From: Pseudomonadota bacterium
GTDB taxonomy: Bacteria; Pseudomonadota; Alphaproteobacteria; UBA2136; UBA6156
Reading direction: 5' to 3'
Length of the DNA: 64,000 nucleotides
Assembly: GCA_016125035.1 (NCBI GenBank)
Contig: WGMN01000011.1
Coordinates: 1 to 64,000 of the forward strand
The translations under genes were made by a program, and so were the position numbers. This document shows positions 5,850-19,259 of this stretch, piece after piece (positions within the stretch are counted from its first letter, which is position 1; each line of letters starts with the position of its first letter). The notes below the pieces were generated by a model. The model saw only the letters and a program-made list of their open reading frames with translations. It was not told the DNA's origin and searched no databases.

Positions 5850-6827
5850 ATGGGCCTGCTCAACAAACTTCTCCTCCTTTCCGCCGCCTTCATCGCCTTG
5901 GCCTGCGGCGCCCTGGCACTGGTGCAGGCGCTCCAGCCGCCGCCGCAGATCCTGCGCCTGGCCATCACTCCCTGGCCCCCCTTCGACTACCTCGCCCTGG
6001 CCGCCGAGAAGGGCTATTTCGCCAAGCAGGGCCTCAATGTTCACCTGGTGGAACTCACCGCTTCCACCGACGCCCTGGCCGCCTTCCAGCGTGGCCAGGT
6101 CGACGCCATCGCCGACTACATCGGCATCGTCGCCACCCACCCGGCCTACACCCAGCGCCAGGCCCGCATCGTCGCCATCACCGACTCCTCCCGCGGCGCC
6201 GATGTCATCCTCGCCCCCAACCTCCCCTCCATGGCACAAATCCGCGGCAAACGCGTGGCTGTGGAAAGCTACGCCCTGGGCCGTTACGTGCTCGCCCGCG
6301 CACTGCAGGTGCACGGCATCAGCCCCAGCGAAATCACCGTCATCCCCGGCGAGCAGGAAACCTTCAAAGACATGCTGCTCGCCCACCAGGTCGACGCCGT
6401 CGTCACCTACCTGCCCTACACCGCCGAGATCAACCAAGCCATCAGCACCACCACTCTCTTTAGCAGCACCGAAATCCCCGACGAGATCTTCGACGTCATC
6501 GTCGCCGGTGGCGATGTCGCCACGCAAATTCCCAACCTCGGCCCGCGCCTGCGGACGGCCTTCAACCAGGCGCTCCAATACGCCCAGAGCCACCCGCAAG
6601 AGGTAACGGCCTTCATCGCCCACCGCGAGGATATGACCCCGCCGCAAGTCATCGATGCCCTTGCCAACGTTCATGTTTTCACCTCCACGGAGCAACAGCA
6701 ACTGGTCAACGCCAACGCCTTGGCCGCGCCTTGGCAACGCCTCCAGCAACTGCTGCTGTCGTCTTCCACCCAGCCGCAGCCTCTCGCGGCGGTCATCCAA
6801 AACCAAGATTGGCCGCATGCCCCGTAA
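5850..6827 (+). CDS. NMT1/THI5-like periplasmic solute-binding protein
   Basis: 325 aa. A hydrophobic N-terminus (LLNKLLLLSAAFIALACGA) acts as signal or anchor. A type II binding-protein fold of the nitrate/sulfonate/thiamine-precursor class follows: LRLAITPWPPFDYLALAAEKGYF, then NVHLVEL, DAIADYIG, IRGKRVAVE and VDAVVTYLPY. The ligand cannot be read from sequence. The ATG chosen sits just before the hydrophobic stretch; the frame is open 100 bases upstream through a repeat. The gene overlaps the histidine kinase by 11 bases, with no permease or ATPase nearby. This suggests the protein feeds ligand information to the kinase rather than to a transporter. Confidence 0.8.
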   Translation: MGLLNKLLLLSAAFIALACGALALVQALQPPPQILRLAITPWPPFDYLALAAEKGYFAKQGLNVHLVELTASTDALAAFQRGQVDAIADYIGIVATHPAYTQRQARIVAITDSSRGADVILAPNLPSMAQIRGKRVAVESYALGRYVLARALQVHGISPSEITVIPGEQETFKDMLLAHQVDAVVTYLPYTAEINQAISTTTLFSSTEIPDEIFDVIVAGGDVATQIPNLGPRLRTAFNQALQYAQSHPQEVTAFIAHREDMTPPQVIDALANVHVFTSTEQQQLVNANALAAPWQRLQQLLLSSSTQPQPLAAVIQNQDWPHAP

Positions 6828-8823
6828 GCCACTCATCCGGCGCTTCTTGCCGCCGTATCTGGCCATTTCCCTGCTCAGCGTGGGGGTGGCCACCTTCTTG
6901 CGCTTTCAACAAATCGAGCCGCGCCTGGTCACCATTGCCGATGCCTGGAGCCTCACCGTCAGCCAAAGCTTGGAGCATTTGCTGCAAGCCGGGCAAGACC
7001 TTCAACTCAAGCGCACCATCAGCACGCTCAGCCTCAATCCGCACATGTACCTGGTGGCGGTGGCCACCGGCAATCCGCCGGTGGTGCGTTATTCCAGCCA
7101 GCACAGCTACCACAACCGGCCTCTGGCCAGCGTTCTCCCTGCCGATATCCTCCCCGCCATGCAACGTGCCCTGGCCACCCGGCAGGCGCAAAGCAGCCAC
7201 TGGGAGTACTCGGGTACACTCATCCACACCTACATCCTGCCGCTTACCTACGCGGTCAGCGTGTTCCCTCCGCATGATGAGCAGGCTTTAATCGTCATCC
7301 GCACCGATTTATCGGTGTTCGATTACCATGAGGAACTGCAATTTGCCCTCGAGACCGCTCTCACTCTTATTTTTGTCCTGGTATTCTCTCTGCTGTTCTA
7401 CTGGCTGTTCAGGCATTACGTGCTGGCGCGGCTTAAGGCCTTGCTGTCGGTGGTCAGTGCGCGAGAGAAGGGTAACACCAGCATCCGCGCCCCAGTGGAG
7501 GGCGAGGACGAAATCACCCTGCTCAGCCGGCACATCAACCAGTTGATGGAGCACGAGAACGCCGACCAGCAAAAGCTCAACGCCTACGCTCACGAGGTCG
7601 AGCAGCAAAACTTTGCCCTTGCCACTGCGCGTGATGAGGCCGAGCAGGCCACCCGCCTTAAAAGCGAGTTTCTCGCCACCATGAGCCACGAACTGCGCAC
7701 GCCGCTGCACGGCATTCTGGGCTTCTCGCAAATGCTGTCTTCCTCAACGCTCCCGCCCCAGCAGGCAGAGTACGCCCAAGCCTTGCACCAGTCGGCAGAA
7801 AGCCTGCTGGTGCTGCTCAACGATATCCTCGACCTCTCCAAAATCGAAGCCGGTCGCCTCTCGCTCGAGCAGGTGCCCTTCAATTTGCGTAATCTGGCGC
7901 AAGAAGTTTTACAACTGGTGGCACCCACCGCTGCCCAAAAAGGCCTCGAGCTTTCCTTCTCCTACAACGCGCCAGAGCTTCTGGTCGGCGACCCTCTGCG
8001 CCTGCGCCAGATCCTCCTCAACCTCGCCAGCAATGCCGTCAAATTCACGCAAAAGGGCTGCGTCATCATCGTGGTGGAAGGGCCGGTAGAGCCTTCACGC
8101 AACCCCCTGCCCATCACCCTCTCTGTCATCGATACCGGCATCGGCATCCCGGAGGATAAACAAAAGCTGGTGTTCGAAAAATTCACCCAGGCAGAAGGCT
8201 CCACCACGCGCAATTTCGGCGGCACTGGCCTGGGGTTGGCCATCACCAAAAAGCTGGTGGAAATGATGAACGGCCATATAATCTTGCATAGCCGCCCCGG
8301 CCACGGCGCCACTTTCCGCGTTACTGTTCCTTTGCCTTTGTCTCCAGGTGTTTCAGGTACGGGGGCTTCGCACTCGGCACCTGTTGCCGTCTCTCCCGCC
8401 CACCTTTCGCTGTGCCGCGTCCTGCTGGCCGATGATCACAGTACCAACCTCATGCTTGCTACCCACTCGCTGGAAAAAATCGGCGTCGCCCGCGTCAACA
8501 TCCACACCGCCGTCAACGGCGCCAAGGTGCTGGAGTTTCTGCGCCACAATGTGGTGGACGTTATCTTCATGGACTGCCAGATGCCAGAGCTCGACGGGTT
8601 TGCCGCCACCCGCGCCTGGCGTGTTATAGAGGCCGAGCAAGCGTTGGTTCGCACTCCCATCATCGCGCTTACCGCCAACGCGCTGTCTGGCACGCGCGAG
8701 CAATGCCTGGCCGCCGGTATGGATGATTTTGTCAGCAAACCTTTTTCGCTGGAGGTGTTAAAGGAAGTCCTGCTGCGCCACTTCAAACCACCAGCGAGCG
8801 CGGGCTCTCCAGCAGCGCCGTAA
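6817..8823 (+). CDS. Hybrid sensor histidine kinase with receiver domain
   Basis: 668 aa membrane kinase. Order: TM1 (~11-29), periplasmic sensor region (~30-180), TM2 (~181-200), HAMP linker, short coiled coil, HisKA with phospho-His ~291 in MSHELRTPLHG, HATPase_c with the NAVKFT N-box and the DTGIGI and GGTGLGL G-boxes, then a C-terminal receiver with phospho-Asp ~586 in IFMDCQMPELDG and Lys in SKPF. The start is set where MPRKPLIRRFLPPY precedes TM1. It is coupled to the upstream binding protein by an 11-base overlap, and its 3' end overlaps the convergent HPt gene. It probably passes phosphate to that HPt protein. Confidence 0.93.
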   Translation: MPRKPLIRRFLPPYLAISLLSVGVATFLRFQQIEPRLVTIADAWSLTVSQSLEHLLQAGQDLQLKRTISTLSLNPHMYLVAVATGNPPVVRYSSQHSYHNRPLASVLPADILPAMQRALATRQAQSSHWEYSGTLIHTYILPLTYAVSVFPPHDEQALIVIRTDLSVFDYHEELQFALETALTLIFVLVFSLLFYWLFRHYVLARLKALLSVVSAREKGNTSIRAPVEGEDEITLLSRHINQLMEHENADQQKLNAYAHEVEQQNFALATARDEAEQATRLKSEFLATMSHELRTPLHGILGFSQMLSSSTLPPQQAEYAQALHQSAESLLVLLNDILDLSKIEAGRLSLEQVPFNLRNLAQEVLQLVAPTAAQKGLELSFSYNAPELLVGDPLRLRQILLNLASNAVKFTQKGCVIIVVEGPVEPSRNPLPITLSVIDTGIGIPEDKQKLVFEKFTQAEGSTTRNFGGTGLGLAITKKLVEMMNGHIILHSRPGHGATFRVTVPLPLSPGVSGTGASHSAPVAVSPAHLSLCRVLLADDHSTNLMLATHSLEKIGVARVNIHTAVNGAKVLEFLRHNVVDVIFMDCQMPELDGFAATRAWRVIEAEQALVRTPIIALTANALSGTREQCLAAGMDDFVSKPFSLEVLKEVLLRHFKPPASAGSPAAP

Positions 8824-9127
8824 AGGCCACGGTTAACTCGTTGTAGGCACCTATGATCGCTTCTGCCAGGGCCTGGCGGTCCGTCGCTGGGGTGGCATGC
8901 TGCGCACGCTCACACAAACTTGCCAGCTTCATTCCCCCCAGGTTGGCGGCGGCACCCTTTAAGCGGTGCCCTGCCGCCATCCAGTCGGGCAGGGGGGCTT
9001 CCAGGTTGGCCAGCAGTTGCAAACTTTCAGCTGAAGACGCGCGAAACTCGCGCACGATTTCCTGCTGAAACTCCTTATCATCCTGTGTCGCCCGCAAAAA
9101 ACGGACAGAATCGAGCACTGTTTCCAT
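8783..9127 (-). CDS. HPt-domain phosphotransfer protein
   Basis: 114 aa, a single histidine phosphotransfer domain. AAGHRLKGAAANLGGMKL (from ~residue 51) holds the phosphorylatable His54 and the conserved Lys/Gly of HPt four-helix bundles. It converges on the hybrid kinase and overlaps its last 41 bases on the opposite strand. By position it is the likely phosphorelay partner that takes phosphate from the kinase receiver. No response regulator with an output domain is in this window. Confidence 0.88.
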   Translation of the reverse strand: METVLDSVRFLRATQDDKEFQQEIVREFRASSAESLQLLANLEAPLPDWMAAGHRLKGAAANLGGMKLASLCERAQHATPATDRQALAEAIIGAYNELTVAFTALLESPRSLVV

Positions 9128-9193: not shown

Positions 9194-9769
9194 TCACTCA
9201 TCGCAAAAATCACGGAAGGTAATGGAATAACGCAAGGCCTCCACTGCAGGTATGCTGTGCTGCCAATCGCGGCGGCTTTCGCCGGCCATGCAGTAAATCG
9301 ATCTCCCCCGTGCCGGCACGGCAAAGCGGGTCCACGCCACGCCGTTTTTTCGCCGGAGACGAAACTGGCAGGTGCTGCCCAACGAAATCCCGATAACATG
9401 GCCGATGGTGGGTTTATCGCGGTGCCAGCCAATCGCCGCGCCAGGGCTATATTCACTAATCAACGCGCTTAAAATTTTGCCCGGTGCAATCCCCGCAAAC
9501 GCCGCTGCCCGTTGCCGCAGCGGCTCAATAAAGTCCGGCAAACCCCCTCCATGCCAGCCGTAACCCACAATACGCCGGTGCGCCTCATAGCCATGGTGGG
9601 TGGCATGCCGGAAGGGCAGCGATTTAAAAATCTCCAGCAAAGCGACTTCTTCCCCCACGCTCATAAACTCTTCCTGATAAGTGAACCCCCCTGGCATGGC
9701 CTTGCGCATACAAAAAGGCGCCTCAAAAAGCACAAGCTGCTCCCTGCAAAATCTTTGTTCCCGCCCCAT
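9194..9769 (-). CDS. alkB: AlkB-family 2-oxoglutarate/Fe(II) dioxygenase
   Basis: 191 aa from the ATG giving MGREQ; a TTG 21 bases further upstream is possible. The Fe ligands are visible in IGWHRDKP (HxD) and WQHSIPAVEALRYSITFR (distal His plus the RxxxxxR-type 2-oxoglutarate-binding arginines). ISEYSPGAAIGWHRD is typical of the short bacterial AlkB branch, which reverses N-alkyl lesions in DNA/RNA. The gene stands alone and leftward; no ada or other adaptive-response gene is next to it. Confidence 0.85.
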   Translation of the reverse strand: MGREQRFCREQLVLFEAPFCMRKAMPGGFTYQEEFMSVGEEVALLEIFKSLPFRHATHHGYEAHRRIVGYGWHGGGLPDFIEPLRQRAAAFAGIAPGKILSALISEYSPGAAIGWHRDKPTIGHVIGISLGSTCQFRLRRKNGVAWTRFAVPARGRSIYCMAGESRRDWQHSIPAVEALRYSITFRDFCDE

Positions 9770-9956
9770 AACTTGATTGTTGAACGGCAATCAAACAATG
9801 GCAATTAAAATCTCAACCAAGGCAGTTGATTCTCAAACCTCTTCCCTCAAGCATTTGTTCTCTCCTGGCCTCTTCTTGGCGTAAGTGGCCGGGAGGTTAT
9901 AAAAAATTCCCAAAAAGGCATTACAAATTTCCCCCGAGCCCATTCTCAAAATCTCC

Positions 9957-9985: not shown

Positions 9986-10052
9986 GCTTGTGCATTTACC
10001 TTAAGTTCGGGGGCAAATGCAGTGTCTAAAACCCACAAGTGGTGAAGATTTG

Positions 10053-10898
10053 GTGCGTACCTCTCTGGTGATTCTCACCTCGGCAATATTGGCCTTGGCC
10101 GCGGTTTGGCTATTGGGGCCACAGCCAAACGGCGGCAGGCACAAGGAAAGTGCTTATGAGCGCGTCATGCGCACGGGGGTTTTGCGGTGTGGGTATAATG
10201 ATTGGGCTCCACTTTTTAGTATGAATCAGGAATCTGGAAAACCTGAGGGGTTTATGGTCGATTTGTTTGAGGAGATCGGTAAACACGCCAACTTAAAGGT
10301 GGAATGGGCGGCGCAGTTGGACTGGGGCACGATTCCTGCCGATTTGGCGGCGGGGAAGGCGGATAGCTTCTGCGCGGCAATTTACGCCAATGCCGTGCGG
10401 GCACGCGGCATGTTGTTTGGTGATGTGACTGGACGGCAGTATCTGGAACCGTTCGTGCGGGCCGACGATGAACGTTTTAGTGGACCGCCGGAACAGGCCT
10501 TTAACCAGCCTGAAATCCGTGTGGTGGGGTGGGAGGGGACGCCTACATTGATGCAGACGCAGCTGCGCTTTCCCAAGGCTAAAACAGTGATGATGTCGAC
10601 CATGGAAGGAACCTCTAATGCGATGCAAGCGGTGGTGACCGACAAGGCGGATGTGTTTTTTACCACCATGGCGGATGCCTCAACATTTATGAAGCATAAC
10701 CCTGGTAAGCTTAGGAGGTTGGGACGAGAGTATTATCTCGGAATGCAAGCACTTGCCCTAAACGCACCGGAAGATGAGCATAACCTGTTGAATTTTTTGA
10801 ACACCAGTCTGCGAGAATTGAAGAACGATGGCACGTTTGACCGGTTGATGGCGAAGTGGAATAAAATCTCGCCAGACTTTATGGAGGCTGCACCGTGA
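10053..10898 (+). CDS. Extracellular solute-binding protein, family 3 (paralog 1 of 4)
   Basis: 281 aa. N-terminal hydrophobic segment, then KESAYERVMRTGVLRCGY, the hallmark shared by all four tandem paralogs, leading into an amino-acid-type (SBP_bac_3) Venus-flytrap domain (GFMVDLFEEIGK; TDKADVFFTT). The GTG start is chosen because it aligns the signal/anchor with the paralogs; an in-frame ATG at 10017 preceded by ggggg is the alternative. Base composition is clearly more AT-rich than the flanking housekeeping genes. It ends with a 4-base overlap into paralog 2. Confidence 0.82.
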   Translation: MRTSLVILTSAILALAAVWLLGPQPNGGRHKESAYERVMRTGVLRCGYNDWAPLFSMNQESGKPEGFMVDLFEEIGKHANLKVEWAAQLDWGTIPADLAAGKADSFCAAIYANAVRARGMLFGDVTGRQYLEPFVRADDERFSGPPEQAFNQPEIRVVGWEGTPTLMQTQLRFPKAKTVMMSTMEGTSNAMQAVVTDKADVFFTTMADASTFMKHNPGKLRRLGREYYLGMQALALNAPEDEHNLLNFLNTSLRELKNDGTFDRLMAKWNKISPDFMEAAP

Positions 10899-11764
10899 AA
10901 AAGGGGGTTATACTGGTCGCCTTAATGGCAGGGCTTATTGGCGGTTTAGTGGGGGTGTGGGTTTTGCGGCCTGTGGGAGGTGGTGAGGGGCACAAGGAGA
11001 GTGCTTATGAACGGGTGATGCGCACGGGAGTTTTGCGTTGCGGTTATATCGTTTGGGCCCCTTACATTACGAAAGACCCAAAAACCGGAGAAATCAGCGG
11101 AATATGGCACGATTTTACCGAGGAAATTGGCAAGGTTCTGAACCTGAAGATTGTGTGGGCGGAAGAGGTAACCTACGGCGATATCGCCGCCAGCATGCAA
11201 AGTGGTCGGGTGGATGCATTTTGCGGCGGGCTTTGGGCGGTGGGTGAGCGTATCCGTGTGATTGACTTTGCCCGGCCGATAACCTTCCAACCCATTCTTC
11301 CCTACGTACGCACGGCCGACCATCGTTTTGACCATGACCTCAGCCTTATCAACTCTCCGCAAGTGAAGGTTTCCACCATTGATGGAGAGGCCGGCGAGTT
11401 GGTGGCGCAGGAAGATTTTCCCAAGGCTCAATTGGCCTCTTTGCCGCAGCTTTCACCAGCCTCGGATATGTTCAATCAGGTTGTGACAGGGAAGGCCGAT
11501 GTGTTCTTCGCCAATCCAGGCAGCATGTCTACTTTCCTGGCCAACAACCCCGGCAAAGTAAGAGCCTTGGATGTGAAACCTTTGCGTATTTTCCCTGAAG
11601 CTTATGCGGTGGCTTATGGCCAGGGAGATTTGCGAGAGATGCTGGATAAAGCAAGCCGGGCCCTTATCTACCAGGGAATCGTGGATAAAATCGTTCAAAA
11701 GTATGAAACGCCGGGCGCTGGGTTTTGGCGTGTGGCACCAGATTACATTAAACCGGAGGAATAA
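10895..11764 (+). CDS. Extracellular solute-binding protein, family 3 (paralog 2 of 4)
   Basis: 289 aa starting with GTG, which overlaps the previous stop by 4 bases. The anchor MKKGVILVALMAGLIGGLVG contains a glycine zipper-like GLIGGLVG and has no lipobox or clear cleavage site, so the protein may stay membrane-anchored facing the periplasm. HKESAYERVMRTGVLRCGY follows, then SBP_bac_3 motifs (DFTEEIGK; GRVDAFCGG; TGKADVFFAN). Like paralog 1 it is relatively AT-rich. Confidence 0.85.
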   Translation: MKKGVILVALMAGLIGGLVGVWVLRPVGGGEGHKESAYERVMRTGVLRCGYIVWAPYITKDPKTGEISGIWHDFTEEIGKVLNLKIVWAEEVTYGDIAASMQSGRVDAFCGGLWAVGERIRVIDFARPITFQPILPYVRTADHRFDHDLSLINSPQVKVSTIDGEAGELVAQEDFPKAQLASLPQLSPASDMFNQVVTGKADVFFANPGSMSTFLANNPGKVRALDVKPLRIFPEAYAVAYGQGDLREMLDKASRALIYQGIVDKIVQKYETPGAGFWRVAPDYIKPEE

Positions 11765-11766
11765 AA

Positions 11767-12636
11767 ATGCGTGTTGGTATCATTCTTCTTGCCTTAGTGG
11801 CAGGGCTTATGGGCGGCTTGCTGGGCGTAACCCTTATCAAGCCTCACCCTCAGGGTGTGGAAGCTGTGCATGAGTCGGCCTACCAGCGTGTATTGCGCAC
11901 CAAAACACTCCGCTGCGGGTATGCGCTTTATGATGTTCTACTGCAGAAGGACCCTAATAGTGGCAAGCTTTCCGGCATTTTCTACGACCTAACCGAGGCG
12001 ATGGCCAAGGAGTTGGGGCTGAAGGTGGAATGGACCATGGAGGTGGGTTACGGCGACATTGAAGAGGCGTTGCGCAGCGACAAGTTTGATATGTTCTGCA
12101 CCGGGGCGATGACCAACCCCAAGCGCGCCAAGCACAGCTTGCAGACGATACCGCTTTACTACAGCGGGTTGGTGGCGTGGGTGCGGGCGGGAGACCATCG
12201 GTTTGATGGTGATTTGGCCAAGCTGAACAACGTGGATGTGCGTTTGGCGACGCGCGATGGTGATGCCTCTGACGAGATTGCGGGGCGGTTGTTCCCCCAA
12301 GCGAAGAAAGTGGCCAGCGCGCAGCTGGCGGACTTTACGCAGATGCTGATGGACGTGAAGGCGGGCAAGGCCGATGCGACGTTCTTCGACCCGGAGTTCG
12401 GCGCGCGGTTTTTAGAGGCCAACCCGGGTTCTGTGCGGGCGATTTTTGCCGACCGGCCGCTGTTTTTGGCGCCAGTGACGATGATGTTGCCGATGGCTGA
12501 GCCGCAATTGAAGAACATGGTGGACGCCACCCTGCGCAACATGGTGCTGCGCGGCGATATGCAGGCGCTGATGCGGAAATATGTGGGGACAACGAAGTAT
12601 TTCTGGTTTGATGCGATGCCGGAGAAGGGAGAATAA
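11767..12636 (+). CDS. Extracellular solute-binding protein, family 3 (paralog 3 of 4)
   Basis: 289 aa; an aaccggaggaataaaa Shine-Dalgarno precedes the ATG. Same layout: a Gly-rich hydrophobic anchor (LMGGLLGVTLI), then HESAYQRVLRTKTLRCGY and the binding-protein fold (IFYDLTEAMAKELG; DKFDMFCTG; GKADATFFD). The AGLMGG...G anchor repeats the pattern of paralogs 2 and 4. It begins two bases after paralog 2. Confidence 0.85.
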   Translation: MRVGIILLALVAGLMGGLLGVTLIKPHPQGVEAVHESAYQRVLRTKTLRCGYALYDVLLQKDPNSGKLSGIFYDLTEAMAKELGLKVEWTMEVGYGDIEEALRSDKFDMFCTGAMTNPKRAKHSLQTIPLYYSGLVAWVRAGDHRFDGDLAKLNNVDVRLATRDGDASDEIAGRLFPQAKKVASAQLADFTQMLMDVKAGKADATFFDPEFGARFLEANPGSVRAIFADRPLFLAPVTMMLPMAEPQLKNMVDATLRNMVLRGDMQALMRKYVGTTKYFWFDAMPEKGE

Positions 12637-12639
12637 ACG

Positions 12640-13500
12640 ATGAAGAAATTCGGTTTTGCCGTAACTCTGCTGGTAGGCTTAGTGGGCGGTCTTTTGGGAG
12701 CATGGCTGTTCAGCGACAACGGTGGTGTGGCAGTCCACAAGGAAAGTGCCTATGAGCGCGTCATGCGCACCGGAACCATCCGCTGCGGGTATTACATGTT
12801 CAAACCGATGAGCTGGAAAGACCCCACCACCGGCCAGATGGAGGGGATGGCGGTGGCCTTTGCCAAAGAGCTGGAAAAACGCTCCGGCATCAAGATGGCA
12901 TGGACCGAGGAGGTGACCTTCGGCAACATGTATGAGGGGCTGAAAACCGGCCGCTATGATGCTATCTGCACCCCCACCTGGCCCGACGGTAACGCGGCCA
13001 AGGTGGTGGATTACGGAAAGAGCTGGTTCTATGCCGGTATTATCCCCATCGTGCGGGCGGATGAAACGCGGTTTGCCTCCTATGCGGATTTTAACCGCCT
13101 GGATGTACGGCTGGTGACGCAGGAGGGCAACTCGTTGGAGGTTCAGGCGCGCACGTTGTTCCCGCAAGCCAAGCAGGTAGTGTTGCCGCCGATTGCGGAT
13201 TCCGGCGAGTTCGACACCGCATTGCTAACCGGCAAGGCCGACGTGATGTTTTGCGACATGAACCGCTACCTGCAAACCGACGCCAGCCACCCCGGAAAGT
13301 TAAAGGTACTGGACTGGTCGCCGGTGCAGGTGAACCCCTTTAAAATGGCCGTGAACAAAGGCGAGGGGGGCCTCAACGCCTTTTTGAGCGAAAACGTGGA
13401 AAGTATGATTAACGACGGCACGATGGTGCGTATTATCAAGCAATACCAACCCGTGCCGAAGACCTTCCTACCGGTGACAAAGCCCTACGCGGAAGATTAG
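12640..13500 (+). CDS. Extracellular solute-binding protein, family 3 (paralog 4 of 4)
   Basis: 286 aa, preceded by gagaagggagaataaacg. Anchor LLVGLVGGLLGAWLF, then HKESAYERVMRTGTIRCGY and the family 3 domain (GMAVAFAKELEKRSGIKMAW; GKADVMFCD). GC content is back to that of the surrounding genome. It is followed 11 bases later by the permease, which makes it the most likely direct transporter partner. Confidence 0.85.
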   Translation: MKKFGFAVTLLVGLVGGLLGAWLFSDNGGVAVHKESAYERVMRTGTIRCGYYMFKPMSWKDPTTGQMEGMAVAFAKELEKRSGIKMAWTEEVTFGNMYEGLKTGRYDAICTPTWPDGNAAKVVDYGKSWFYAGIIPIVRADETRFASYADFNRLDVRLVTQEGNSLEVQARTLFPQAKQVVLPPIADSGEFDTALLTGKADVMFCDMNRYLQTDASHPGKLKVLDWSPVQVNPFKMAVNKGEGGLNAFLSENVESMINDGTMVRIIKQYQPVPKTFLPVTKPYAED

Positions 13501-13511
13501 GTTACAAACAC

Positions 13512-14183
13512 ATGTTCCTCACCGCCGCCCAAATCCTCTGGGAGTACCGCGAAGCCTTCTTAAAGGGCCTGGCGGTCACGCTGGAGATGAGCGCCATCAT
13601 CTGGAGTGTAGGTATTGTGCTGGGCTTCACCCTGGGGTGGCTGGGCGCCACTTACCGGGACAGCGTCGGCCAGGTGGTGCGCTGGACGTCTTTTGTGCTC
13701 GGCGGCGTGCCCATCCTGGTGTTCCTATTCTGGCTGCATTACCCGGCGCAGGCGATGTTCAACCTGGTGATTGACCCGTTCTACACCGCCACCTTCACCT
13801 TCACGGTCATCAACGTGGTGGCCATTGCCGAGCTGGTGCGCGGCGCCCTGATGGACTTCCCTCAGCAATACCTCACCGCCGCCAAGGTGTGCGGTGTACC
13901 AGCGCGGCAGACGTTTTTACGCATCCAATTGCCTCTGCTGCTGCGCGGGGTCATTCCGGCGCTGCTGATGCTGCAAATCGTCATGCTGCACACCACGCTG
14001 TTTGCCAGCCTGATTTCAGTGGAGGAAATCTTCCGCATTGCCCAGCGCATCAACGCACTCATCTACAAACCGGTGGAAATCTACACCGCGCTGGGGGTGT
14101 TCTTCCTGGCCGTCAGCCTGCCGGTGAACGGCTTTGCCCTGTGGTTCAAGGCGCGTTACACGCGCGATACCTCGGAGAACTAA
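13512..14183 (+). CDS. ABC amino-acid-type transporter permease
   Basis: 223 aa with five or six membrane helices. The inner-membrane coupling loop is EYLTAAKVCGVPARQTFLRIQLP-like, with the conserved E/Q-Y..AA...G.P..Q.F..I.LP (EAA) pattern around residue 115-140 that docks the ATPase. HisM/GlnP-like length and topology. Only one permease is encoded, so the channel is probably a homodimer. It lies 11 bases after the fourth binding protein and 3 bases before the ATPase. Confidence 0.88.
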   Translation: MFLTAAQILWEYREAFLKGLAVTLEMSAIIWSVGIVLGFTLGWLGATYRDSVGQVVRWTSFVLGGVPILVFLFWLHYPAQAMFNLVIDPFYTATFTFTVINVVAIAELVRGALMDFPQQYLTAAKVCGVPARQTFLRIQLPLLLRGVIPALLMLQIVMLHTTLFASLISVEEIFRIAQRINALIYKPVEIYTALGVFFLAVSLPVNGFALWFKARYTRDTSEN

Positions 14184-14186
14184 CCC

Positions 14187-14930
14187 ATGCTCACCGCCAC
14201 CAACCTCAGCAAAAACTACCAGGGCCACAAGGTGCTTAAAGGCGTAAGCCTCAGCCTCAAGCCCGGCGAGATTACCACCGTGCTGGGGCCCTCCGGCTCC
14301 GGCAAAACCACGTTGCTGAAGCTCCTCTCCCTGCTCGAGGCAGCAGATGCCGGCAGCCTGATGGTGGATGAGAAAATCTACAACTTCCCCTGGGATGACC
14401 GAGGCGGCGCCTACCCCCTCGTGGGGCCGTGGCCCAAGCTAACAGTCGTGTTCCAACAGCTGTTCCTGTGGCCGCACCTCACCCTGCGCGAGAACATTTT
14501 ACTGCCGGTGCTGGCCCGTGGCGCCACCGAGGCCAGCGTGAAGAAAGACCTGGCGGAATTGGTGGACATTATGGAAATGGGCGAGTTCCTGGACCGCTAC
14601 CCCAACCAGGTGTCTGGCGGCCAAAAGCAACGCGCGGCCCTGGCGCGGGCCATTTTGCTGAAACCGCAGTACCTGCTGCTGGATGAGATCACCTCGGCGC
14701 TGGATGTGATCCAGGTCGCCAAAATTGTGGAACTGTTACCGCTGCTGGCCAAACGCGGCATCGGCATGGTGCTGGTCACCCACCTGCTTAACTTCGCCCG
14801 CAAAACCGCCGACAACGTGCTGTACATGGAAAATGGCGCTGTGGTGGAAGAAGGCGCGCGGAGCATCTTGGCCAAGCCCAAAAGCAAGCAGCTGCGCGCC
14901 TTTCTCCAGGCGGCGGATAAAGCCAGTTAA
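14187..14930 (+). CDS. ABC transporter ATP-binding protein (polar amino acid type)
   Basis: 247 aa. Walker A GPSGSGKTT (~34-42), Q-loop in FQQLFLWPHLT, signature VSGGQKQRAAL (~142-152), Walker B YLLLDEITSALD (~160-171) with catalytic Glu, H-loop VLVTHLL. The Walker B region reads DEITSALD as in GlnQ/HisP-type ATPases. It completes the importer made by the preceding permease and, presumably, one or more of the four binding proteins. It ends 24 bases from the convergent DUF3299 gene. Confidence 0.92.
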   Translation: MLTATNLSKNYQGHKVLKGVSLSLKPGEITTVLGPSGSGKTTLLKLLSLLEAADAGSLMVDEKIYNFPWDDRGGAYPLVGPWPKLTVVFQQLFLWPHLTLRENILLPVLARGATEASVKKDLAELVDIMEMGEFLDRYPNQVSGGQKQRAALARAILLKPQYLLLDEITSALDVIQVAKIVELLPLLAKRGIGMVLVTHLLNFARKTADNVLYMENGAVVEEGARSILAKPKSKQLRAFLQAADKAS

Positions 14931-14954: not shown

Positions 14955-15527
14955 TTATGGCAGTCCATCCCCGCCATCCCTCCCACCGGAAGGATTCACC
15001 ATCCCGTAGCTCACCTTCTTCTGCTTCAGCAGCACACCGTCCTTCATCACAAAAAAGATGCCGTTCTCGGTGTTGTTGGTCAGGCGGAAGGTCCCCTGCA
15101 TGGTCAGCATGGTGTCGTCGTAGGGTACGCCTTTCTTGGCGATCACCTCAATCACTTCATTGGGCTCGCCCGGCGGGCAAAAAGGGCAGGTCGGCGTCCG
15201 CTTGGAAAGCAGGAAGTGGGTAGATTTCTCTCCGCTGTCCATCGGCAGCATAAAGCCATCCACGGTAATCGTCCGCCCGTTCATCGCCTTGATCTCCGGG
15301 GTAAGCTTGGCGGTGATATGCGGCTCTTTGTTGCTGTAGCTTATTTTGGATTTGATCAACGTATTCCACACCACCCCGCTGGCCATCGGCAGGCTCTCTT
15401 GTGCTTTACGCTCATCAATCGGCTGGTAGGCACTGTCATCATCGGCCTTGCTGGAAAAGGCAAACCCCGCACTGGCCGTTAAAACGGCCAGTGCGGTAAG
15501 GGGGAACAGGCAGGTTCTCATATGCAT
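14955..15527 (-). CDS. DUF3299 secreted protein
   Basis: 190 aa; a cleavable-looking signal peptide (FPLTALAVLTASAGFAFS). CPFCPPGEPNEVIEV around residue 112 is the characteristic Cys motif of DUF3299 proteins, which are commonly found next to FtsX-like ABC systems. GFMLPMDSGEKSTHFLLS precedes it. The start has an aaaaggaaaggat Shine-Dalgarno. It is the last gene of the leftward zur operon. The adjacency of DUF3299, FtsX-like permease and ATPase resembles the ZrgABCDE-type zinc systems described in Vibrio; the match is by family and context only. Confidence 0.75.
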   Translation of the reverse strand: MHMRTCLFPLTALAVLTASAGFAFSSKADDDSAYQPIDERKAQESLPMASGVVWNTLIKSKISYSNKEPHITAKLTPEIKAMNGRTITVDGFMLPMDSGEKSTHFLLSKRTPTCPFCPPGEPNEVIEVIAKKGVPYDDTMLTMQGTFRLTNNTENGIFFVMKDGVLLKQKKVSYGMVNPSGGRDGGDGLP

Positions 15528-15538
15528 ATCCTTTCCTT

Positions 15539-16738
15539 TTACCGGCTGGCCAGCAAGCGCGGCAGGCTCAGGCGGTAGATACGCAGCGCGGGCACAAAGG
15601 CCCCCACCAGCCCCAGGCCCACCACTGCGGCAAACAGGCAGGCGTAGGCTTGCGGGTCGGCCACCGTGCCTTCGGCCAGCTGCCCGCCAAAAACCTGGGC
15701 GGCGGCAAAACGCGCAAAGCCGTAACTCAGCGCCAGCCCCAGCGCGGCCCCCAGCGCGCTGATGGTCACGCCCTCCAGCAGCACCAGGCGCATCACCTTA
15801 AACGGCCCGGCACCAAAGCAACGCATCAACGCCAGGTCGTAAAGGCGCTGGCGCATCGCTTCAGCCATCGCCACCAGCAACCCCAGCGCGGCAATGCCGA
15901 TAAACACCCCGCCGATAAGCTTCAGCGTATCACTGCCCACACCCACCAGCTTGCGCAGGCGCGCGGCCTCCCACGCGGGGCTGGCCGCCTGCATGTCGGT
16001 CTGCTTGTTGATAAGCCTCGGCAGGCTCGCCACCGCCAGCGGCGTGCGGTACTTCACCAGCACTGCGGTCACTTCGCGGTTCTCGGGTTTGGGGCGCTCT
16101 TCCACCGGGGTGTCGTCGTCGTTTTCGTGCACATACCACACGCTGTCCACGGGGGTCAGCACCAGCCGGTCCAAAATGGTGCCGCTGGGCTTTAAAATTC
16201 CCACCAGGGTGTAGGGCGCAAAGCTGTGCAGCTCTCCTCCCGGCGCCAACCCGTGCGACCCTGCAAATTTTCCGCCCAGCTTCAGCCCCAGCGCCTGCGC
16301 CACGTCATGCCCGGCCACCGCCTCCATGGTGTGGGCAAACATCCTCCCGCCGGGCTGCAGGCGCGCGCCGTACCAATCCGCGTAGTCCGGGGTGGTGCCC
16401 ACAATGCGGTAACCGGCCAGGTTATCGCCCAGCGCCAGCGGCACTGTGGCTTTAATGAGCGGGTTGTCCTTCAGCGCCTCGGCTTCTTTTAAGGGTATGT
16501 TCCCGGTGGGCACGTCGGCGTGCAACACGGCAGAGAGCACCAGCTGCAACGGGCTGCCCTTGGCTCCCACCACCATGTCGATGCCCTGCAGGTTGCGCGT
16601 CAGGTTGTGCTCAAACTGGCTGCCCACCGCCAGCACCCCTGCCATCAGCGCCGTCCCCAGCGCAAACAGCACCACGTTATACCCGGTGCGCAACGCGTTG
16701 TGCTTCAGGTAGGCCATCATCAAACCGAATGTGCTCAT
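15539..16738 (-). CDS. FtsX-like ABC transporter permease
   Basis: 399 aa. MacB/FtsX topology: one N-terminal TM (~18-38), a large periplasmic domain (~40-265), then three C-terminal TMs (~272-292, 322-342, 367-387). VSQ/GAKGSPLQLVLSAVLH is typical of the YbjZ/LolE-like subgroup. It pairs with the ATPase encoded 2 bases upstream. Such complexes move substrates by mechanotransmission rather than as importers. With Zur upstream and DUF3299 downstream, a role in zinc or metallophore handling is inferred. Confidence 0.85.
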   Translation of the reverse strand: MSTFGLMMAYLKHNALRTGYNVVLFALGTALMAGVLAVGSQFEHNLTRNLQGIDMVVGAKGSPLQLVLSAVLHADVPTGNIPLKEAEALKDNPLIKATVPLALGDNLAGYRIVGTTPDYADWYGARLQPGGRMFAHTMEAVAGHDVAQALGLKLGGKFAGSHGLAPGGELHSFAPYTLVGILKPSGTILDRLVLTPVDSVWYVHENDDDTPVEERPKPENREVTAVLVKYRTPLAVASLPRLINKQTDMQAASPAWEAARLRKLVGVGSDTLKLIGGVFIGIAALGLLVAMAEAMRQRLYDLALMRCFGAGPFKVMRLVLLEGVTISALGAALGLALSYGFARFAAAQVFGGQLAEGTVADPQAYACLFAAVVGLGLVGAFVPALRIYRLSLPRLLASR

Positions 16739-16740
16739 GG

Positions 16741-17379
16741 CTATTCTCCCTTCAGGCTCAGCGTTTGGCTGAAGTGTTTCTTAATCCGCGCATCATGGCT
16801 GGCGGCGACCACCTGCGCCCCCACGCTCTCAGCCGTTTCCAGCAGAAGGCCGATCACCGCCTCCGCCGCCTCGTCGTCCAGCGCCGAGGTCGGCTCATCC
16901 GCCAGCACCAGCTGCGGCTTGTGCACCAACGCACGGGCCACACCCACCCGCTGCTGCTGGCCGAGGCTCAACTCATGCGGGCGCCGCTGCGCCAGTTTCC
17001 CCAAGCCCAGCTTCTCCAGCAACGCCAGCGCGTGGGCCTGCTCCACCGCCAGCCCGGCCATAAAGGGCGCCACCAGCACGTTCTGCAACACGGTCAGCGG
17101 CGCCATCAGGTGCGGCTGCTGGAACACAAAGCCGATATTCCGCCCGCGATACGCATCCCGCGCAGCGGCGGGCAAAGCCGTCATCTCGGTTTCGCCGAGA
17201 TAAATCCTCCCCTTCTGCGGCTGCAAAAGCCCGGCCAGCAAAAACAGCAGGCTGCTTTTGCCAGAGCCGGAAGGCCCCTGCACCAACAGGTGTTGGCTGT
17301 TGTTAAGGCGCAGTTTGCGCACATCAATCAAGGGGGCTTTGGCGCTGTAGCCAAAGCCCAGGTTGCTTATTTCCAGCAT
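16741..17379 (-). CDS. MacB/LolD-like ABC transporter ATPase
   Basis: 212 aa. Walker A QGPSGSGKSSLL (~34-45), Q-loop FVFQQPHLM, signature LSLGQQQRVGVARAL, Walker B LVLADEPTSALDD, H-loop AASHD. Note the LSLGQ signature in place of the usual LSGGQ. It drives the FtsX-like permease that begins 2 bases downstream. The small secreted protein gene ends 3 bases before its start, which supports one operon from zur through DUF3299. Confidence 0.9.
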   Translation of the reverse strand: MLEISNLGFGYSAKAPLIDVRKLRLNNSQHLLVQGPSGSGKSSLLFLLAGLLQPQKGRIYLGETEMTALPAAARDAYRGRNIGFVFQQPHLMAPLTVLQNVLVAPFMAGLAVEQAHALALLEKLGLGKLAQRRPHELSLGQQQRVGVARALVHKPQLVLADEPTSALDDEAAEAVIGLLLETAESVGAQVVAASHDARIKKHFSQTLSLKGE

Positions 17380-17382
17380 AGT

Positions 17383-17541
17383 CTAGCTCCGCTTCTGCCA
17401 GCAGTTTTTGGGGGCGGAGGGGTTACCCACGTCGTAAACAGAGCTACGGCCGTAAAAGCCTTTCCCATCGGTTTTGCAGGGCCGATCCACGGCTTGCGCC
17501 ACAGTGGCCAAGCCCAGCATTATCATCAATACGTATTTCAT
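17383..17541 (-). CDS. Small secreted Cys-containing protein (52 aa)
   Basis: The frame is open further upstream, but MKYVLMIMLGLATVAQA is a clean signal peptide at this internal ATG. The predicted mature peptide is only about 36 residues and holds two cysteines (RPCKTDG; KNCWQ), possibly a disulfide. No family recognised. Its position inside the zur operon suggests a periplasmic accessory role. Confidence 0.55.
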   Translation of the reverse strand: MKYVLMIMLGLATVAQAVDRPCKTDGKGFYGRSSVYDVGNPSAPKNCWQKRS

Positions 17542-17611
17542 GTCGTTTATCCAATATGGTTGTAAATCCGCGCCATGCCTTTTGCGGCAAGGCTTTATGA
17601 AGTCTAAAAAA

Positions 17612-17905
17612 CTAAGCGGATACAGGCGGCGCCCGCGGCAAAGACGCGGCAACCAGCGCCACTGCGGCAAGCGAGTACCAGCGCGCCACCGGCAGCATAA
17701 CCAGCGCCATGAACAAAGGCACTATAATTGCCGCCGGCCCATCGGCCAGCACCAGGTGCTGGCAATACTCATAAATCTCGCAAGCCTTGCCGTGGTGTTT
17801 GTGGTCTTCAAAACCGTGGGTGGCCACGTGCATAAACGCGGCGGCCTGCACCGCCACAAACATCAAGGCCAGCAGCAGTCCCCAAAAAGAGCGACGCACA
17901 CGCAT
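17612..17905 (-). CDS. Small membrane protein with His-rich loop
   Basis: 97 aa: a hydrophobic N-terminus (~7-24), a His/Cys-rich stretch GFEDHKHHGKACEIYEYC (~31-48) that could bind zinc, then a hydrophobic C-terminal half. It resembles the small DUF2946-like proteins seen near zinc genes, though I cannot confirm the family. Its ATG lies one base after the zur stop, so the two are almost certainly cotranscribed. Confidence 0.6.
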   Translation of the reverse strand: MRVRRSFWGLLLALMFVAVQAAAFMHVATHGFEDHKHHGKACEIYEYCQHLVLADGPAAIIVPLFMALVMLPVARWYSLAAVALVAASLPRAPPVSA

Positions 17906-17906
17906 C

Positions 17907-18362
17907 TCAGGCTTTATCCCGGCAATCGGCGCAACGCCCCACCACTTCCAGGTGGCGGTGGGTCACTTCAAAGTGGTGTTTATGGGCTTCATTCTCCACC
18001 TGGCGGTCCAGGGGGGCAGAGCTCACCTCCACCACCTCGCGGCAATCGCCGCACACCAAAAGCTGGCTGGCGTGGGCCTCATCCGGGTGGGGGCAACCGA
18101 TATAGGCATTCAGGCTGGCCACTTTATGGATAAACCCGTTCTGCTGCAAAAACTCCAACGCGCGGTAGGTCACCGGCGGCTTGTCGTTTTTCAATTTGTG
18201 CATAATTTCAGCGGCACTCAGCGCCTTGTGCCCCTGCCAGATAAGCTTAAGCACCGCACGCCGGGTTTCGGTCAGCCGCAGCCCCCGCTCGGCGCACACA
18301 CGCTCCACCTGGGCCAGGGCATCCTTCACGCAGTGGCTGTGGTCGTGGCGGTGGCCCAACAC
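17907..18362 (-). CDS. zur: Zinc uptake regulator Zur (Fur family)
   Basis: 151 aa. A winged helix (LTETRRAVLKLIWQGHKALSAAEI...PPVTYRALEFL) is followed by a Fur-type dimerisation domain with structural zinc cysteines in LLVCGDCREV and VGRCADCRDK and metal-site His residues (HKHHFEVTHRHLEVVG). The paired CxxC motifs and the His-rich N-terminus (GHRHDHSHC) favour Zur over Fur. GTG start with an AGGGAGA ribosome site. It heads a leftward operon and is divergent from the nicotianamine-synthase-like gene. A palindrome in its own promoter suggests autoregulation. Confidence 0.85.
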   Translation of the reverse strand: MLGHRHDHSHCVKDALAQVERVCAERGLRLTETRRAVLKLIWQGHKALSAAEIMHKLKNDKPPVTYRALEFLQQNGFIHKVASLNAYIGCPHPDEAHASQLLVCGDCREVVEVSSAPLDRQVENEAHKHHFEVTHRHLEVVGRCADCRDKA

Positions 18363-18385
18363 TTTCTCCCTAAATAATGGTTGAC

Positions 18386-18414
18386 AGATTACTGTTAATT
18401 ATTAACAACAGCAA
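18386..18414 (-). promoter_or_regulatory. Promoter of the zur operon
   Basis: On the minus strand TTGCTG and TAATCT are separated by exactly 17 bases, and the start codon is about 24 bases downstream of the -10. The spacer is filled by the 15-bp palindrome described separately, so a bound repressor would block RNA polymerase. Confidence 0.5.
18393..18407. promoter_or_regulatory. Putative Zur operator 1
   Basis: TGTTAATTATTAACA is a perfect 15-bp palindrome (one central base) in the 75-bp gap between zur and the divergent nicotianamine-synthase-like gene. The same half-sites recur at 20130-20144. The layout, a regulator divergent from its target with the site between, fits Zur, but binding is inferred. 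Confidence 0.6.
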
Positions 18415-18437
18415 CCGTTAACTGCAACAACCCTACC

Positions 18438-19259
18438 ATGACCGCCACCTCAAACCACACCCCTCTCCCCCCTTCTGCCCACGCGGTACGCAAGGTCATG
18501 GCCCGGCTTGAAGGCCTGCCCGACCTCACTCCCTCCGCCGCAGCCACTTCGGCCTTCAACTGCCTGGTGGGCATGGCGCGGCGGCGGGTTCCGACCGCGG
18601 TGGCGGCAGATATCGTAAGCACCCTCTCACAAACGGGAGAACTCTCGCGCCTTCACACCCTGTGCGCGCGGGGTGAAGCCGGGCTTGAGCACGCCTGGAG
18701 CACCCGCCTCAACACCTCCGCCAATCCTTCCGCCCTGCTGGCAACCTTCCCTTATATGGCCGAATACCGCACCCTCGTCGCGCAAGAGGTTGCCCTGCTG
18801 CGCAAAACCTTTCCTTCCGCGCAGCGGGTGCTGTTCGTCGGCAGCGGCCCCCTGCCGCTCAGCCCGTGGCTGATGTCCGCACGCCACGGCCTCACCGTCG
18901 ACATGCTTGATAAAGATGCCTCCGCCCACCACTGCGCCCTGCCCTGGCTGCAAAAGCTTCCCGGCCACCAAAACCTCCGCTGCCTGCACGCCGACATCCT
19001 CCACATGAACAACTTCTCGGCCTTCCACGCCGTCTTCCTGGGCGCCATGGTGGGCACCACGCAGGATGAAAAACGCACCATCCTCTCCCACCTGCACACA
19101 GCCATGCTGCCCGGCCAGCCCCTGCTGGCCCGCAGTGCAAAAGGGCTGCGCCAGCTGCTCTACCCTCAGCTTCCCGCAGCCGCGGGGTTCAGGCTGGCCG
19201 GGTCCACCCGCGCCGGCGGCAAGGTCATCAACTCCACCCTCCTGCTCATCCGCGTGTAG
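18438..19259 (+). CDS. Nicotianamine synthase-like protein (metallophore biosynthesis)
   Basis: 273 aa, the size of bacterial CntL. FPYMAEYRTLVAQEVALL (~104-121) matches the FPYY.NY....E segment of nicotianamine synthases. VLFVGSGPLPLSPWLM (~131-146) is the SAM-binding motif that separates this family from ordinary methyltransferases. LDKD (~157) binds the SAM ribose. Family members transfer aminobutyrate from SAM to an amine or another SAM, giving nicotianamine or the staphylopine/pseudopaline backbone, which chelate zinc, nickel and related metals. It starts divergent from zur with a palindromic operator between. No opine dehydrogenase (CntM), exporter or TonB receptor gene lies beside it. 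No clear Shine-Dalgarno. Confidence 0.8.
   Translation: MTATSNHTPLPPSAHAVRKVMARLEGLPDLTPSAAATSAFNCLVGMARRRVPTAVAADIVSTLSQTGELSRLHTLCARGEAGLEHAWSTRLNTSANPSALLATFPYMAEYRTLVAQEVALLRKTFPSAQRVLFVGSGPLPLSPWLMSARHGLTVDMLDKDASAHHCALPWLQKLPGHQNLRCLHADILHMNNFSAFHAVFLGAMVGTTQDEKRTILSHLHTAMLPGQPLLARSAKGLRQLLYPQLPAAAGFRLAGSTRAGGKVINSTLLLIRV

Follow-up and report, generated by a model that had tools for sequence, protein, structure and literature searches.

Why would a bacterium place four genes for substrate receptors in front of the genes for a single pump? This question is raised by a 64,000-nucleotide stretch of alphaproteobacterial DNA (contig WGMN01000011.1, positions 1 to 64,000), hereafter the window, in which six plus-strand open reading frames (ORFs) succeed each other at positions 10053-14930, with neighbours spaced or overlapping by no more than 11 bases: four solute-binding proteins (SBPs), a permease and an ATPase. 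We consider it probable, at about 0.7, that these genes belong to an ATP-binding cassette (ABC) importer that works as a hub, in which many SBPs of differing ligand specificity load one permease/ATPase pair of the PAAT type.

The first gene, SBP1 (10053-10898), begins with a GTG codon, and this start agrees with the N-termini of SBP2-4. An in-frame ATG at 10017 would add 12 residues, and the residue numbers given for SBP1 refer to this longer, 293-residue reading. SBP2 (10895-11764), SBP3 (11767-12636), SBP4 (12640-13500), the permease (13512-14183) and the ATPase (14187-14930) follow. All four SBPs passed the gathering score of the family-3 solute-binding family SBP_bac_3 (PF00497; 76.3, 51.4, 65.6 and 60.6 bits for SBP1 to SBP4, E-values 1.2e-13 to 2.4e-21), which was the best Pfam family for each of them, and the permease and ATPase matched PF00528 (BPD_transp_1) and PF00005 (ABC_tran), respectively. 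The initial annotation of four paralogous SBPs followed by one permease and one ATPase is thus borne out by the ORFs and the Pfam matches. The nearest named models were amino-acid systems (lysine/arginine/ornithine and ectoine SBPs, GlnP and ArtP), with scores that stayed below the equivalog cut-offs. The permease scored at the border of TIGR01726, the model of the HEQRo N-terminal domain with three transmembrane segments (44.1 bits in the genome search and 41.6 bits for the protein, cut-off 42.2). For the ATPase, the best named models were ArtP, TcyN, EhuA and GlnQ, all below their equivalog cut-offs, PRK11124 (ArtP) coming first with 195 bits versus a cut-off of 369. The window therefore combines family-3 SBPs, a borderline TIGR01726-type permease and an ArtP/GlnQ-kind ATPase, the features of the PAAT-type ABC importers (TC 3.A.1.3).

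One permease and one ATPase for many receptors

The window genome measures 1.45 Mb in 18 contigs and is 90.7% complete. A profile search of it gave no SBP_bac_3 match above the cut-off beyond the four SBPs (its five matches in a census of the class include one below the cut-off), and the permease was its sole TIGR01726 match. Scanning contigs with an alignment of the four SBPs yielded 78 loci, mostly from metagenome-assembled genomes (MAGs) titled Alphaproteobacteria, Proteobacteria or Micavibrio. Their clusters contain one to six SBPs, either together with a single permease and a single ATPase, in varied order, or without a nearby permease. With S, P and A for SBP, permease and ATPase, the arrays read SSSSSS-P-A (L008), P-SSSSSS-A (L018), SS-P-SSS-A (L014), SSSS-P-A (L011) and P-SSS-A (L028). 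Close to the window the family is patchy, with matches in the one other genome of the genus, in none of nine others of the family and in none of seven others of the order. One locus, L020, is labelled Actinobacteria yet carries the family; a wrong label or a misbinned contig may account for this.

Fourteen carrier genomes, taken from these loci, contained 31, 35, 32, 19, 38, 20, 19, 23, 6, 16, 13, 4, 2 and 7 SBP matches, 265 in total, and each of them had one permease match. The highest count, 38, came from a genome of 2.4 Mb. TIGR01726 matched once per genome in all 17 genomes searched (the 14 carriers, the window genome, its genus-mate G001 and G049), in five of them above the cut-off, and the ATPase gave one match per genome at E <= 1e-45 in 18 of 18. 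The model is not blind to additional permeases, as it found up to at least 16 matches per genome among 288 genomes of the class. Census genomes with a single permease match had five SBP_bac_3 matches or fewer, except G089 with 6 and G142 with at least 14. G142, 99% complete and 1% contaminated, was found to have 19 SBPs and one permease; the orders of G049 and G142 are represented by one genome each. Each carrier examined thus has one PAAT permease and one ATPase of this kind for 2 to 38 SBPs, which strengthens the importer of multiple specificity suggested by the initial annotation beyond the evidence of the window itself. The striking part is this genome-wide ratio of SBPs to permeases, rather than the four genes alone.

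The permease itself was 67% identical to that of G001 and 69% identical to that of L036, a MAG reached via another search. In the same comparison, the ATPase reached 67% with G001 and no more than 54% outside the genus. To judge from these identities, the permease is kept unusually constant, more so than the ATPase outside the genus, as would be expected if it has to accept many partners.

N-termini and genomic position of the receptors

The SBPs had been described as sharing a Gly-rich, uncleaved-looking membrane anchor and as possibly being tethered receptors. Gly-rich N-terminal stretches, putative anchors, are present in SBP2 (10904-10966), SBP3 (11773-11838) and SBP4 (12649-12714), but the description does not hold for the putative uncleaved anchor of SBP1 (10059-10118), the 21-residue hydrophobic run of which, TSLVILTSAILALAAVWLLG, is not Gly-rich. 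The runs of the four window SBPs are 21-22 residues long and carry a signal-peptidase I-like AxA site in none of the four cases under a strict rule and in one under a loose rule. Across the family the site was found in 59 of 142 members (strict) or 85 of 142 (loose), numbers that are a rough guide only, since the two rules are crude regular expressions that disagree with each other and the loose one matches the linker as well. AlphaFold2 models of SBP1 and SBP4 (predicted local distance difference test scores of 92.9 and 94.3) each show an N-terminal helix (25 and 23 residues; residues 2-24 in SBP4), a linker and the SBP domain, but a cleaved signal would look alike in such models.

The family as a whole has N-termini of two kinds, short signals with a textbook AxA end, of which L018 gives examples, and longer hydrophobic runs that lack it, and by inspection L014 combines both kinds within one array; therefore, tethering is not required by the system as a whole. 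A simple pattern search found no lipobox among the 142 members, while four members have a Tat-like start. These K-R-x-F-L starts belong to L011 (1116-2009), L026 (1773-2675), L028 (6132-7016) and L076 (7854-8765). Judged by such N-termini, members of a single receptor family seem to be exported in three ways: a Sec signal, an anchor and a Tat-like route.

These data bear on the alternative that survives best, namely that the N-terminal stretches are ordinary signals that are cleaved non-canonically, leaving the SBPs free in the periplasm. The many relatives with textbook cleavable signals at the same place, and the AxA counts that go with them, speak for it. In the window, however, the runs of 21-22 residues are without a site in all four SBPs by the strict rule and in three by the loose rule, and small-xxx-small spacing, which argues against ordinary signals, is in excess in the hydrophobic runs of the family (176 occurrences versus 127 +/- 8 in 1000 shuffles of 93 runs). 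The latter test left out 49 of the 142 rows, with runs shorter than 15 residues, and its result is only suggestive, as the sequences are related. We regard non-canonical cleavage as a serious alternative with the odds somewhat against it, and it would leave the rest of the hub explanation standing. A membrane anchor is plausible for the window SBPs, and tethering is not general, given the many relatives with a textbook AxA site.

A second alternative concerns the SBPs that are encoded away from a pump. It holds that only permease-adjacent SBPs feed the importer and that the dispersed ones serve distant signalling proteins such as histidine kinases, chemoreceptors or cyclases. Most family SBPs lie away from a permease, surrounded by unrelated housekeeping genes. 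Another SBP was the direct upstream neighbour of 49, and the direct downstream neighbour of 49, of the 137 SBPs examined, whereas permeases and ATPases occupied 13 and 8 of the adjacent places. Some orphan SBPs that belong to other families are known to act in signalling, according to the account of the TTT/Bug receptors (PMC5994714). In the window, a hybrid histidine kinase gene with a receiver domain (6655-8823, plus strand) lies on the same strand 1.2 kb upstream of the array. Yet two opposite-strand genes separate the two, a histidine phosphotransfer (Hpt) gene that is convergent to the kinase gene and overlaps it (8783-9127) and a gene for an AlkB-kind 2OG-Fe(II) oxygenase (9194-9790). 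Moreover, the 139 other genes found next to family SBPs were scattered, with SRP54 (5), MinD/ParA-type (4) and thiolase, TPR, HisKA, HATPase_c and thioesterase families (3 each) as the commonest Pfam matches. These 139 were scanned out of 140, the omitted one (in L075) being part of a family SBP below the cut. HisKA was thus found in 3 of 139, and no sensor family was enriched beside the SBPs among the 25 commonest of 207 neighbour families. The sensor array that had been suggested for the window finds no backing in this scatter of housekeeping genes. In addition, the permease/ATPase pair of G001 has no family SBP on the 9 kb examined, and the two SBPs of this genome are on other contigs, a layout to be expected if SBPs reach a single pump in trans. 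Hence, we consider a signalling role for the dispersed SBPs unlikely. Separately, SRP54 was the commonest neighbour (loci L005-L082), perhaps reflecting one shared ancestral place.

Receptor divergence and the proposed mechanism

The four window SBPs share 28-36% pairwise identity, in agreement with the strong difference in the ligand domain noted at the outset. In a midpoint-rooted FastTree phylogeny of 141 members, their last common ancestor takes in every row, and SBP2 and SBP3 have their closest rows in other genomes (L042 and L049). The 142 members do not include family matches below 140 bits, loci repeating the window or identical ORFs, and one fragment was removed before the tree was made. 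The nearest row was within the own genome for only 12 of the 141 rows, a count for which two loci of one genus-mate genome carried different labels and in which close paralogs may be missed, as the tree holds only part of the SBPs of each genome. The low identity and wide tree spread indicate that the window SBPs are old paralogs. Recent local duplication was rejected because of this spread and of the 12 of 141 own-genome nearest rows.

What the receptors have in common is the motif E-S-A-Y-x-R-V-x-R-T followed by R-C-G-Y, which the initial annotation had pointed out. It is invariant in the four SBPs apart from small variants in SBP3 and SBP4, and is strongly conserved among the 142 members; for the LRCGY stretch the invariance is partly built in, because this stretch served as the pattern of the locus search. 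The motif aligns with the usual start of the SBP fold, in a stretch of AncCDT-1, and is therefore a family signature rather than a special device. Two cysteines of SBP1, C58 (10188-10190) and C119 (10371-10373), are both present in 138 of the 142 members, both absent in two and represented by one of the two in a further two, and distinguish the family from the aligned AncCDT-1 sequence. C58 lies within the locus-search stretch and C119 outside it. The two probably form a disulfide between strands of lobe 1.

For the binding pocket, 16 positions were placed with the help of the AncCDT-1 alignment and of the ligand contacts of HisJ/LAO. The letters at these positions were distinct in 140 of the 142 members and formed four different sets in the window, so that the pockets are not identical, and the pocket columns were more variable than the rest (mean 2.83 versus 2.33 bits). 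The residues that hold the ligand backbone in known amino-acid binders are Arg77 and Asp161 of HisJ/LAO. Both counterparts are found in 60 members, while 34 have only the Arg, 33 only the acid and 15 neither of the two. The window pairs are R128/T217 in SBP1, R/N in SBP2, R/D in SBP3 and A/D in SBP4, which has lost the carboxylate Arg. Since SBP3 alone has the classical pair, its predicted ligand is likely an amino acid; for the other three, and most of all for SBP4, this is less certain.

Tandem layout and a common N-terminal motif would suit recent or redundant copies with one specificity, but the identity of 28-36%, the ancestor at the base of the whole tree and four different pocket sets make this very improbable. 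Equally improbable is that some members are enzymes with a solute-binding fold, such as cyclohexadienyl dehydratase: the best sequence and fold matches by overall similarity do include ancestral and modern cyclohexadienyl dehydratases, and the best solved structure for SBP1 is AncCDT-1 (for SBP4 it is a tryptophan-bound SBP of Desulfonauticus, with further amino-acid binders next for both), but AncCDT-1 is described as an amino-acid-binding ancestor, reconstructed ancestors resemble many relatives, and the window SBP genes stand with a permease and an ATPase.

The hub explanation itself has several points against it. The carriers are mostly MAGs, and the 14 were hand-picked from the loci, without stated completeness. 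The pocket is only modestly more variable than the rest, a value that 1.8% of 20,000 random position sets reach, and the Arg and acid pair is complete in just 60 of the 142 SBPs. Horizontal transfer of the permease would give a similar constancy, and the orphan SBPs may work with permeases from other families or with distantly encoded partners outside transport. The gene content, the divergence, the pocket differences, the one permease and one ATPase of this kind per genome and the dispersal of the SBPs are what was observed; operon transcription, the homodimer, shared docking, the ligands and tethering are what we infer.

On these grounds, the hub would work as follows. The six genes would form an operon for a PAAT ABC importer, with the single permease gene presumably giving a homodimeric channel and the ATPase the motor. 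The four SBPs, with their different pockets, would dock in turn at one shared outer face, allowing a single pump to import several solutes, which are most likely amino acids or compounds close to them. Related bacteria would have one such pump serving up to 38 SBPs, mostly encoded elsewhere on the chromosome. An uncleaved N-terminal helix would probably hold the window SBPs to the inner membrane and thereby make them more concentrated near the pump. A bolder generalization, which we hold tentatively and at slightly less than even odds, is that scattered small-genome Alphaproteobacteria send all PAAT traffic through a single homodimeric hub, that its receptors, interchangeable and up to about 38 in number, are in many cases tethered to the inner membrane by helices with small-xxx-small packing faces, that competition between receptors sets the diet, and that the system corresponds, among ABC importers, to the group II ECF transporters.

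Studies of how a single ABC importer accepts many SBPs, and of whether its channel adds selectivity, have usually had no more than a few SBPs to work with. If the hub explanation is true, docking rules could be read from sequence, with the positions conserved across the 142 SBPs expected to include the docking face and the variable ones the pocket, and the annotation of orphan SBPs in these genomes would change.

Neighbouring genes and comparison with known systems

The GC content at third codon positions rises along the array, from 0.61 and 0.57 in SBP1 and SBP2 to 0.73 and 0.75 in SBP3 and SBP4, 0.84 in the permease and 0.81 in the ATPase; the leading SBPs may be later arrivals or under different constraints. 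Downstream, a minus-strand set of DUF3299, FtsX-MacB and ABC ATPase genes (14955-17379) adjoins a gene for a FUR-family regulator (17907-18362, minus strand), beside which lies a nicotianamine synthase gene (PF03059, 18438-19259, plus strand). The region 14955-19259 is perhaps a locus for a metallophore and metal homeostasis.

In the open-licence literature we found no account of this SBP family or of such an SBP ratio in a PAAT importer. Among PAAT importers, HisQMP is shared by HisJ and ArgT, and GlnPQ also shares SBPs. In GlnPQ the SBPs are fused to the permease, whereas in the window they are separate ORFs. ArtJ and ArtI share ArtQMP (PMC6640053). Such systems resemble the window in their SBP_bac_3 receptors, in the permease and ATPase families and in having more than one SBP per pump. 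They differ in that ArtQMP and HisQMP have about two SBPs each, whereas the carriers have 2-38 SBPs and no second PAAT permease in the genome, the one permease being encoded by a single gene.

Several paralogous SBPs on one ABC importer are also known from DppBCDF of Pseudomonas aeruginosa, for which genetics showed five SBPs, DppA1-A5, with differing substrate range (PMC4206461). This is a peptide importer with another SBP type, and its abstract reports no genome-wide orphan set. SBPs that far outnumber the membrane components, and are largely orphans, have been described for the TTT/Bug receptors, with up to 181 SBPs in Bordetella, for at most four TTT membrane components, and 434 in Rhodoplanes (PMC5994714). 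According to this source, those are TctC-type SBPs of secondary transporters in large genomes, many of them in Rhodoplanes near histidine kinases or regulators; in the window, SBP_bac_3 and not a TctC-type family was the best Pfam match of all four SBPs. Several binding components have been proposed to compete for one energy-coupling module in group II energy-coupling factor (ECF) transporters (PMC7755397), but these have membrane-embedded S-components and no SBP, as that report presents them, so the likeness is an analogy only.

As for tethering, MetQ of Neisseria is described as a lipid-anchored SBP acting on its ABC importer in a Gram-negative bacterium (PMC8416018); its anchor is a lipid, whereas that of the window SBPs is a putative helix. 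According to a survey that covered 49 model strains, SBP_bac_3 proteins make up 69% of all SBPs in the predator Bdellovibrio bacteriovorus (PMC9602780), a richness that may possibly parallel that of the Micavibrio-like carriers. The sharing of an importer by several SBPs is already established; what appears new is this ratio for a PAAT importer.

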